Positions 59,622 through 62,095 of a stretch of 64,000 bases of DNA are shown in pieces. The stretch's first letter is position 1. Each line of letters begins with the position of its first letter. This stretch comes from Elusimicrobiota bacterium (GTDB lineage Bacteria; Elusimicrobiota; Elusimicrobia; UBA1565; UBA9628), in the NCBI GenBank assembly GCA_027452025.1, contig DAIDHI010000022.1, positions 1 to 64,000 of the forward strand, given 5' to 3'. Below the pieces are notes generated by a model. The model was not told the DNA's origin, ran no database searches, and saw only the letters and a program-made list of their open reading frames with translations. Made by a program: the position numbers and the translations under genes.

Positions 59622-59711
59622 TTGACGTATGGCGAAACCTGGGGTACACTCGCTTGAAGGTCCGGGAAGCGATCTGGCTGCTCGAAAGAGATGGTCGCAA
59701 GCGCTCAGTCG
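59622..59711 (+). pseudogene. Putative hicA-like toxin remnant: promoter and 5' coding end only
   Basis: TTGACG-N17-TACACT, then frame LKVREAIWLLERDGRK resembling HicA N-termini; similarity stops before the attC edge and the RBS region appears missing. Confidence 0.4.
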
Positions 59712-59789
59712 ACCTAACGCAACGCTATGCCGCGCGCGCTCTTGGGGGATTCCCACGGAGCGCGCGTCGGCATCAGCGCTTGGTTAGAT
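59712..59789 (-). other. attC-like integron recombination site (78 bp)
   Basis: Minus strand ATCTAAC (RYYYAAC) ... GTTAGGT (GTTRRRY); long stem with three extrahelical bases on the 5' arm, two of them 6 nt apart as in classical attC L'' boxes. Confidence 0.75.
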
Positions 59790-59813
59790 CCCGCCCAATT
59801 CCATTTCATGGTC

Positions 59814-61580
59814 TCAATTCAGAAATTTATCGAACTTTGCAAGAAGAACAGCAATGCCCTTTGGAATCTCGCTTTTCTTGAACTGCAAGAGTATTCGCGC
59901 AGGGGTAAGTGTGACTCCGAGATCGGTATGCACTCTTGCAGTCAGTCGCTTAAACAATTCCTTCCCAGAGAGGACACGCAGGCGAAACTTTAAGTTCGCC
60001 CACTCCTTGTCAAACTCAGCATTAACGACCGCGAGGACAGTTGCCTGGTCCTTTCCTGAGGATCGTTGATGTTCCCAGCGCTTTGCGCCGATTTGGGCCT
60101 GAGTCGTTGCCTTCATATCGTCAGATAATGCCAACAGCAAGTTGGCCGCAGGCGCAATCTTAGAAGGAACTTTTTCTCCACTCCGCTTAGCCTTCTCAGC
60201 TACGAGGAGGGCAATAGTCCGGTCAATTACCTCGGGATTCAGCAGATAGTTTTCAATCTCCTTCCTTTTATGAATGTGGCTGAACGCCACAGCAGTCTTC
60301 AGTTCGGCCTCTATGGCGTCGACCGCCTCTTGCGGAAAGTAATCCCTATCAAAGATGGCTGCAATCTTGGGGGGGCTCGCAACAGCCTTTTTAACCCCCC
60401 AGGCAAAATCCCGAATCCGTTTCCATGCCGCAAACCCGTCAGATTCCAGTGCCGACACGCCTCGGCAGGAGGCAATCTCGGGATAACCAGCCCTGGCAGC
60501 GAAGCCGCGGATGATTTTCAGATCTTCTGCGCCTTCGACAAAAAGAATTCTCCGATTGCGCGCTAACTCTGATAGGGATAGATTGTGTACCGATCCAATC
60601 GTATCAAGGGCCTGCTGAACGCCGTCGGCGTCCTGCACTCTTACGGCTTTTTTTGTCGTCTTATCAACGATAACGATTTCAGCCGGATCAGCCTCGGCCA
60701 TGATCTCCGTAGAGTGCGTTGCAAGCACCACGTCTGGCCCGAGTTGGCGGATGATCGTTACTAGTTGCCTTTGGATTTCAGGGTGCAAGTAAATCTCAGC
60801 CTCATCCACCATGAGTAGCGAGTGGCCCTGTGCATGGACGAAATGGGTAAGCAGCTGGCACCAGGCCTGAAAACCGTAGCCGGCCCAAAATAGCTCCCTT
60901 GTGATACGGTTCTCACGATAAAACATCGTGAGCTTTGAGGCCACCATATCGAGTGCGACCTTTTCAATTTCCATTCCCGGCCAGGTCGATTTAACTAAAG
61001 ATGAGAATTCGAGGAATTTCTCCGGGTAGTGATGCCAGAAATTACGGAAATTTCCTGATGCCCTATGTGAGAGCAAATTGCGGCCGACCGTTTCTCTCTG
61101 GATCAGAATTTCCTCATGCTCAATCGGCCCGAGGATCGGAACCGCCGTAATTTGAATCGGGAACGCGGTCCGAAATGTCGCAGTCGAAGTGATGGCTTTT
61201 GTATCAGAATGCGGAATCAAGCAACAACCGCCATCGCGCGGAAAGAACAAAATGAGACGGTTGCCATTGGAGAGGTGGAATTCTATTGAAGAGTCCGTTT
61301 CTTGATACTCCGTATGAACATTCTCGAGTGAAAGCGGCAAGGAGTCTGGCGAGAGATTATACCCCCGCACTTCGCGCTTCCCGGGTCCCTGGACTACCTC
61401 TGGGGGCTTCGCGCGGGCACGGCGAAGCCCCGCGGCCAAAGCACGAAAGGCACTCAATACTGTCGATTTGCCCGAGTTGTTTGGCCCGACTAGGATATTT
61501 ATGTGCTGAATTGGAATGATGAAGTCAACGAGTGCTTTGAAATTGCGGAATCGAATTGAGCGGATATGAACATCAGGCAT
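59814..61580 (-). CDS. OLD-like ATP-dependent endonuclease (AAA ABC-type ATPase plus TOPRIM domain)
   Basis: INILVGPNNSGKSTVLSAFRAL (Walker A), SLLMVDEAEIYLHPEIQRQL (Walker B), VVLATHSTEI; TOPRIM-like ILFVEGAEDLKII and AIFDRDY; lower GC than neighbours. Confidence 0.85.
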   Translation of the reverse strand: MPDVHIRSIRFRNFKALVDFIIPIQHINILVGPNNSGKSTVLSAFRALAAGLRRARAKPPEVVQGPGKREVRGYNLSPDSLPLSLENVHTEYQETDSSIEFHLSNGNRLILFFPRDGGCCLIPHSDTKAITSTATFRTAFPIQITAVPILGPIEHEEILIQRETVGRNLLSHRASGNFRNFWHHYPEKFLEFSSLVKSTWPGMEIEKVALDMVASKLTMFYRENRITRELFWAGYGFQAWCQLLTHFVHAQGHSLLMVDEAEIYLHPEIQRQLVTIIRQLGPDVVLATHSTEIMAEADPAEIVIVDKTTKKAVRVQDADGVQQALDTIGSVHNLSLSELARNRRILFVEGAEDLKIIRGFAARAGYPEIASCRGVSALESDGFAAWKRIRDFAWGVKKAVASPPKIAAIFDRDYFPQEAVDAIEAELKTAVAFSHIHKRKEIENYLLNPEVIDRTIALLVAEKAKRSGEKVPSKIAPAANLLLALSDDMKATTQAQIGAKRWEHQRSSGKDQATVLAVVNAEFDKEWANLKFRLRVLSGKELFKRLTARVHTDLGVTLTPARILLQFKKSEIPKGIAVLLAKFDKFLN

Positions 61581-61612
61581 GTGTTCTGTCCAGTTGTTCT
61601 GAAGTGATGTGG

Positions 61613-61619
61613 ATCTAAC
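61613..61619 (-). other. attC R'-like core site GTTAGAT (proposed cassette 5' boundary)
   Basis: GTTRRRY on the minus strand, 32 nt upstream of the ATPase ATG. Confidence 0.5.
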
Positions 61620-61672
61620 GTGTGATTAGACTGACCGGCCTAGCTCGGCCATGTTAGATTTGTCGTTTCGGG

Positions 61673-61701
61673 AGTATAGGGCGACTTCCCAATTCGCGCA
61701 A
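61673..61701 (-). promoter_or_regulatory. sigma70-like promoter TTGCGC-N17-TATACT reading into the OLD-like gene
   Basis: Minus strand -35 61701-61696, -10 61678-61673. Confidence 0.45.
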
Positions 61702-61735
61702 GGGGATTTCCCACGGAATCCTTGGCTTGCGGCCC

Positions 61736-61755
61736 GTTAGGCCGGTCGGCCTAAC
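61736..61755. repeat. Near-perfect palindrome GTTAGGCCG-GT-CGGCCTAAC
   Basis: 9-bp arms, 2-nt centre; ends match GTTRRRY and RYYYAAC core sites. Confidence 0.8.
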
Positions 61756-61795
61756 ACGGCGGCCCAGGTCAGCCTATGGAGCCTAACGTGCGGGC

Positions 61796-62095
61796 TCAGC
61801 CCTGATAGGCCCGCTTGATCGCCGCCAGGTCCAACTTGACCATCCCCTGCACGGCCTTCATCATGCGGTTGAGCTGCTCCGGCGTCGCCTTCAGCTTCAG
61901 CATGAGCCCCATGAGCTCGGCGGGAACGACCTGCCAGGTGAGTCCGTTTTTGTCCTTGAGCCAGCCGTGGTCGCCGTAATGGGTGACGCCCAGGATCTTC
62001 GAGTCCTTGAAGACGGCGCAATAATACCGCGCGGCTTCCTCGGCCTGCCCGTCGAACCACAGGCAGGGATTGATCTTGGTCTTTACGAGCCCCAT
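61796..62095 (-). CDS. VOC-superfamily (PhnB/3-demethylubiquinone methyltransferase-like) protein
   Basis: NPCLWFDGQAEEAARYYCAVFKDSKILGVTHYGD, GLTWQVVPAELMGLM. Confidence 0.82.
   Translation of the reverse strand: MGLVKTKINPCLWFDGQAEEAARYYCAVFKDSKILGVTHYGDHGWLKDKNGLTWQVVPAELMGLMLKLKATPEQLNRMMKAVQGMVKLDLAAIKRAYQG

Follow-up and report, generated by a model that had tools for sequence, protein, structure and literature searches.

A probable integrase-less integron with a single OLD-type nuclease cassette in an Elusimicrobiota genome

Introduction

How can a gene stand in a chromosome as an integron cassette, with its own recombination site, when no integrase gene accompanies it? Integrons are described as consisting of one integrase, one attI site and one array. 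The locus considered here lies in a 64,000-nucleotide stretch of an Elusimicrobiota genome (the window, meaning the whole stretch of DNA that was analysed) and consists of one cassette with no integrase gene beside it. The attC site, EHBs, SALINs, CALINs, attG sites and defence cassettes are all already known (PMC2727003, PMC9024848, PMC9229058, PMC12690207, PMC12444791), and off-target insertion, loss of intI and rearrangement have been proposed as origins of CALINs (PMC8618304). Experimental off-target insertion of cassettes by IntI at attG sites is attributed to Loot et al. (2024, Nat Microbiol 9:228) in PMC12690207 and PMC12444791.

Results

The features of the locus are listed in Table 1. 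An attC site is an imperfect hairpin with two or three extrahelical bases, 6-8 nt apart, on the R''-L'' arm (PMC2727003). The window hairpin has this form, with a spacing of 6 nt that visual inspection also showed for most attCs of relatives. The initial annotation had described an attC-like hairpin 24 nt past the stop codon of the ATPase gene (59814-59816), with ends ATCTAAC and GTTAGGT and with an extrahelical G and A 6 nt apart. Sequence, spacings and coordinates (59712-59789, minus strand) proved exact, the ends fit RYYYAAC and GTTRRRY, and the folded hairpin displays a G and then G-ATGCCG-A. A small correction concerns the spacer: the G bulge described in it is present, and the integrated form keeps almost no unpaired central spacer, just this G bulge and a C bulge. 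The fold has an energy of -33.8 kcal/mol as DNA (z = -5.2), equalled by none of 200 shuffles, and a palindrome scan of the window returned this attC as its single result, with none in five shuffles.

Table 1. Coordinates of the cassette and of the platform upstream of it
Feature	Position	Strand	Basis
attC of the cassette	59712-59789	minus	Fold z -5.2 and held-out covariance model R1
attC ends: R'' ATCTAAC, R' GTTAGGT	R'' 59783-59789; R' 59712-59718	minus	Crossover between 59718 and 59717
Integrated gene cassette, 1,901 bp	59718-61618	minus	Complement rule at left border and GC contrast
Cargo: OLD-type ATPase and TOPRIM nuclease, 588 aa	59814-61580	minus	Pfam, PADLOC, motifs, fold match
attI core: GTCTAATCACACG, then TTAGAT beyond the crossover	61613-61631	minus	Same motif adjacent to intI in relatives and preceding the first cassettes in other arrays
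attI crossover	between 61619 and 61618	minus	
Pc-attI platform, R2-matched stretch (75 nt)	61614-61688	minus	R2 held-out match
Putative Pc: TTGCGC 61696-61701, 17 nt, TATACT 61673-61678	61673-61701	minus	-10 box position; -35 weak
Second, partial attI-like element: CCGTGTTAGGCCGACCGGCCTAA	61737-61768	minus	R2 14.7 bits, E 0.0014, model positions 47-78 only

A covariance model (R1) was built from 14 attC sites near intI genes of the order, the window attC being left out. Its training alignment has 24 model pairs, with 94% of the cells paired, and 12 covarying pairs (shuffles gave 8.5, slid controls no more than 5). R1 gave a single match in the window, the attC itself, with 61.1 bits (E 3.2e-16), a score above background. 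The strict pattern RYYYAAC-N38-68-GTTRRRY occurs at 16 places in the 3.25-Mb genome, a number equal to that of the reversed control, and the window site alone among these has an attC-type fold. The window attC is real; as an attC, it would be recombined by IntI through the bottom strand. BLAST with this attC against its own genome revealed nothing credible beyond the attC itself, the best other match (contig C98) being a short chance match without R boxes; an R1 match on C78 (21.9 bits) was rejected because it has no attC fold.

When a cassette is circularised, its first bases complete R' and are expected to pair with its own R''. The left border of the window cassette, GTTAGATCC, is the complement of R'' GGATCTAAC, and the cassette start GTTAGATCCA at 61619 agrees with the complement of its own R'' (GTTAGATCCC) at 6/7 variable positions, versus 4/7 for the downstream R'. 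For calibration, 51 array cassettes of the order were compared: their starts matched the R'' complement at a mean of 6.0/7 positions (6 or 7 in 42 of the 51), and the downstream R' at a mean of 3.3/7. The cassette therefore extends from 61618 to 59718. The lower-GC cassette of about 1.9 kb in the initial annotation corresponds closely to this element, which has a GC content of 0.516 versus 0.70 and 0.66 in the flanks, and the second GTTRRRY sequence (GTTAGAT) placed 32 nt before the ATG is found at 61613-61619, with the ATG at 61580. The 208-nt flank downstream of the attC contains a promoter-like TTGACG-17-TACACT (59622-59650, plus strand) directed into the attC. A truncated hicA gene was suspected in this flank (59654 onwards, plus strand), and Pfam gave no match.

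The protein encoded by the cargo gene is complete and of the OLD ATPase-TOPRIM type. It has the Walker A/B ABC ATPase, followed by a C-terminal TOPRIM domain with E and DxD, that characterise the OLD family; it matches AAA_21/AAA_15 in Pfam, and PADLOC ranked AriAB, Old and GajA. The motifs GPNNSGKST, DE..IYLH, FVEG..D, FDRDY and HKRKEIENYLL are kept in six aligned homologues, and a fold search with the protein model (pLDDT 81, pTM only 0.53) gave OLD nuclease 6p74 as the best match, followed by retron PtuA and GajA. The OLD-like ATPase of the initial annotation is thus borne out by Pfam, PADLOC, invariant motifs and fold search. The six aligned homologues, at 38-44% identity, come from Ignavibacteriales, Legionella, Caballeronia and Alphaproteobacteria and belong to a distant, scattered family. 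The gene is absent from the 341 other genomes of the phylum, indicating that it came from outside. The cassette holds one gene, and none of the partners of Gabija, retron or PARIS systems (GajB, RT and ncRNA, AriB) was found. No shared partner gene was apparent near the cargo relatives at L055-L061, and R1, which is tuned to the order of the window, detected no attC beside the distant relatives. By analogy with its family, the protein most likely acts in anti-phage defence.

The region upstream of the cassette (61605-61800) had one foreign BLAST match in the order, 84% over 32 nt, situated right before the first attC-array cassette in genome G016. First cassettes elsewhere, located by the border rule, are preceded by the same architecture: a TAYAAT box, a leader, and about GTTAnGCCGACCAGTCTAATCACAAG with TT beyond the crossover. 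This architecture is found directly after intI (e.g. L140, L146, L148, L151 and L154), where it is by definition attI with Pc, and also where intI is absent. The -10 box of the window lines up with the TAYAAT of other platforms at an equal distance from the crossover; the -35 box is weak, and a generic promoter scan did not list Pc.

A sequence-only model (R2) was constructed from 31 platform sequences, with the window left out and the rows picked by eye among candidate borders. It matched the window over model positions 16-90 only, with 33.6 bits (E 1.8e-9 for the window and 8.4e-8 genome-wide), and this was the only convincing match in the whole genome. As an independent check, 9 of the 15 platforms first found by R2 alone have a correctly oriented attC about 0.1-1.6 kb downstream. 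We interpret 61613-61701 (minus strand) as an integron attI, by similarity, with a putative Pc. The presence of this attI with its putative Pc directly upstream of the cassette argues for attI x attC insertion rather than for a stray cassette. The term "CALIN-like" used in the initial annotation holds for a single attC without intI, but is incomplete, since an apparently intact Pc-attI platform, matched by R2 and previously missed, adjoins the cassette upstream.

Two other readings of the upstream partner were rejected. An attG is a site that is neither attI nor attC, whereas the attI model matches here, and this reading was dropped once the upstream flank had been linked to the array start in G016. 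A decayed attC, on the basis of a shared TCCGTGGGAA(A)TCCCC string, was rejected by R1 with filters off. Just upstream of Pc, the partial attI-like element (Table 1) contains an internal palindrome, GTTAGGCC-GACC-GGCCTAAC; this element is possibly a recombination scar or an extra IntI binding site. The platforms of L140, L141, L154, L217 and L222 have a hairpin between the -10 box and attI, i.e. in the transcript leader. A leader hairpin is present in many platforms; its sequence varies and its pairing looks conserved.

Cytochrome c and DUF2231 genes flank the cassette, the platform and a VOC-family gene in the window. In relatives L103, L107 and L108 the ends of these two genes are only a few bases apart. 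The cassette-free junction sought by the initial annotation is found there, with the platform and the VOC-family gene absent too, so that it represents an insert-free locus and not an empty attI. The VOC-family gene (61796-62095, minus strand), between the platform and the DUF2231 gene, is absent at the junction in the compared relatives, and its stop codon is followed by another GTTAGGC. In G032, the same junction holds an unrelated low-GC AAA ATPase gene (L102, 5151-6774). This junction is possibly a hot spot for insertion.

The initial annotation had seen no integrase gene in the window, and none was found in the genome (94% complete), in which no TIGR02249 match exceeded the cut-off and the best matches skip much of the profile between positions ~180 and 238. 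Xer-like genes on C43 and C35 were rejected as IntI, as much of positions 178-239 of TIGR02249 is missing. A complete integron has intI in the element or in the genome, and none was found here; in having a single attC and no integrase, the locus fits the term SALIN. A search for further attCs revealed a second array in this genome, on another contig (C39; L192, 656-2110), with three tandem attCs (R1 44-55 bits) and, as cargo, an ORF6N protein gene, a small membrane protein gene and a MazE/MazF pair. Neither intI nor an R2 match was found on this 9.4-kb contig, and the genome of the window therefore holds a CALIN too.

In the order, 21 of 56 genomes have an intI over the curated cut-off (30 of 342 in the phylum), and 36 of the 56 have attC matches. 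The suggestion that this is a lineage in which integrons are little discussed does not describe the order, which is not integron-poor. The proposal of an acquired single cassette agrees with the bona fide attC, the absence of intI and the lack of the cargo gene elsewhere in the phylum.

Strong R2 matches (E ≤ 1e-6) numbered 67, in 22 genomes: intI lies at most 2 kb upstream in 12 and is lacking there in 53, while 2 are too near the contig start to be judged, with the reservation that some of the 53 are near contig ends and that several orphan-bearing genomes are fragmented. The single-contig genome G012 has one intI, at 2.96 Mb, and five platforms (at 1.75, 2.05, 2.72, 2.96 and 3.48 Mb). This sole intI (C1, 2960333-2961256, minus strand), in a genome with 45 attC matches, carries one in-frame TAG that could reflect decay, recoding or a sequencing error.

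Orphan platforms have flanking genes common to different species. G016, G008 and G012 have in common a stretch of upstream DNA of about 4.2 kb (82-83% identity), which reaches as far as attI and no further. In the pairs G018/G004 and G008/G012, both flanks are conserved and the cassettes between them differ, with only attC similarity. Shared upstream DNA without intI implies that the intI-free state predates the species split and that the cassettes postdate it. An IntI that acts in trans is the simplest explanation for syntenic orphans with differing cassettes; the differences may also stem from differential loss out of an ancestral array that was longer. This synteny evidence comes from relatives, the genus of the window having one genome.

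Discussion

We estimate at roughly 80% the probability that the window contains an integron without an integrase gene, in which a Pc-attI platform carries one OLD-nuclease cassette inserted by IntI in trans, as one of a type of slot that recurs throughout the order. An IntI acting in trans, either since lost from the genome or encoded in the unassembled 6%, would have recombined the attC of a circular cassette with attI, thereby inserting the cassette. Transcription of the nuclease gene, the ATG of which is 38 nt inside the cassette, would be driven by Pc, and the nuclease would most likely serve anti-phage defence. Integrase-free Pc-attI platforms recur in the order at fixed chromosomal positions and with changing cassettes, so that a genome's one IntI, or its few, probably supply several scattered slots. 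The window platform may now be inert, because no intI was found in the genome. We consider evenly balanced the broader proposal of a distributed integron, in which conserved-locus Pc-attI platforms without an adjacent integrase are kept as parallel first-position slots loaded in trans, the window being one such slot, with an OLD-type defence nuclease.

It is doubtful, although worth weighing, that an ordinary intI-attI-cassette integron lost its intI by deletion here and that the other orphans are independent ruins rather than active slots. Loss of intI is one published route to CALINs (PMC8618304), and it would fit the genome of the window, which yielded no intI. At the protein level, 34 platforms were inspected: 11 have intI upstream, and one, in G014 (L231 on C418, ~1922-2008), retains upstream of attI a 29-aa remnant of the intI C-terminus with 93% identity, so some orphans are decayed integrons. 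The other 22, however, have no intI homology upstream, most of them with at least 1.8 kb of sequence. The syntenic orphans, in up to three species, also argue against simple decay: their intI-free upstream DNA is continuous to attI and their cassettes differ, so the cassettes changed after the intI-free state arose.

A stray cassette, inserted off target by IntI into an ordinary genomic attG (GTT-like), is improbable. The single attC and the lack of a nearby intI are compatible with such an event, and SALINs are known, among them 115 single orphan cassettes in Shewanella (PMC9229058), but the upstream partner is a 75-nt match to the Pc-attI of the lineage and not a bare G-T-T, and motif and promoter box stand at a fixed distance from the crossover. 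By itself the gene would resemble any foreign defence gene, but the idea that it is an ordinary horizontal acquisition with a hairpin next to it by chance is refuted at these scores by three independent signals (attC, E 3e-16; attI, E 2e-9; matched border) in the right order, orientation and spacing.

The integrase-less integron that we favour shares with chromosomal integrons, such as the Vibrio superintegron (PMC8618304), an attI with a crossover between G and TT, an upstream promoter (here putative) and cassettes that are composed of a single gene with its attC and share one orientation, and a toxin-antitoxin cassette is present elsewhere in the genome. It differs in that the platform has no adjacent intI and only one cassette, and in that there are several platforms per genome in the order. 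Like CALINs and SALINs (IntegronFinder, PMC9024848; PMC12690207; PMC9229058), it has an attC cassette, here a single one, and no integrase; unlike what those terms require or describe, the cassette is preceded by an apparently complete Pc-attI platform. As the attG insertions of Loot et al. (2024) are presented in PMC12690207 and PMC12444791, they too are single cassettes dispersed in chromosomes, whereas the upstream partner here is attI-like, linked to a putative promoter and, in relatives, syntenic across species. The integron defence cassettes of Darracq 2025, Getz 2025 and Kieffer 2025, as cited in PMC12444791, likewise have probable anti-phage cargo, which here is a single-gene OLD-type nuclease in an integrase-less slot. 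The cargo resembles the OLD nuclease of Thermus scotoductus (6p74) and Gabija GajA in combining ABC ATPase and TOPRIM in one protein; it differs in that its cassette has no helicase or reverse-transcriptase partner, and its identity of 38-45% is only to the distant family.

Orphan attI platforms appear to be undescribed in the open-access literature, where our search turned up no account of attI-promoter platforms that lack intI and occupy conserved loci. The lineage's attI upstream of a cassette offers a testable origin for CALINs, and R2 and the syntenic pairs can be used in any complete genome of the order. If the finding is true, many of the loci now classified as CALINs or SALINs may be slots that function. 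If the order does keep several integrase-free attI-promoter slots at fixed loci with cassette turnover, a single genome could express more than one first-position cassette at the same time.
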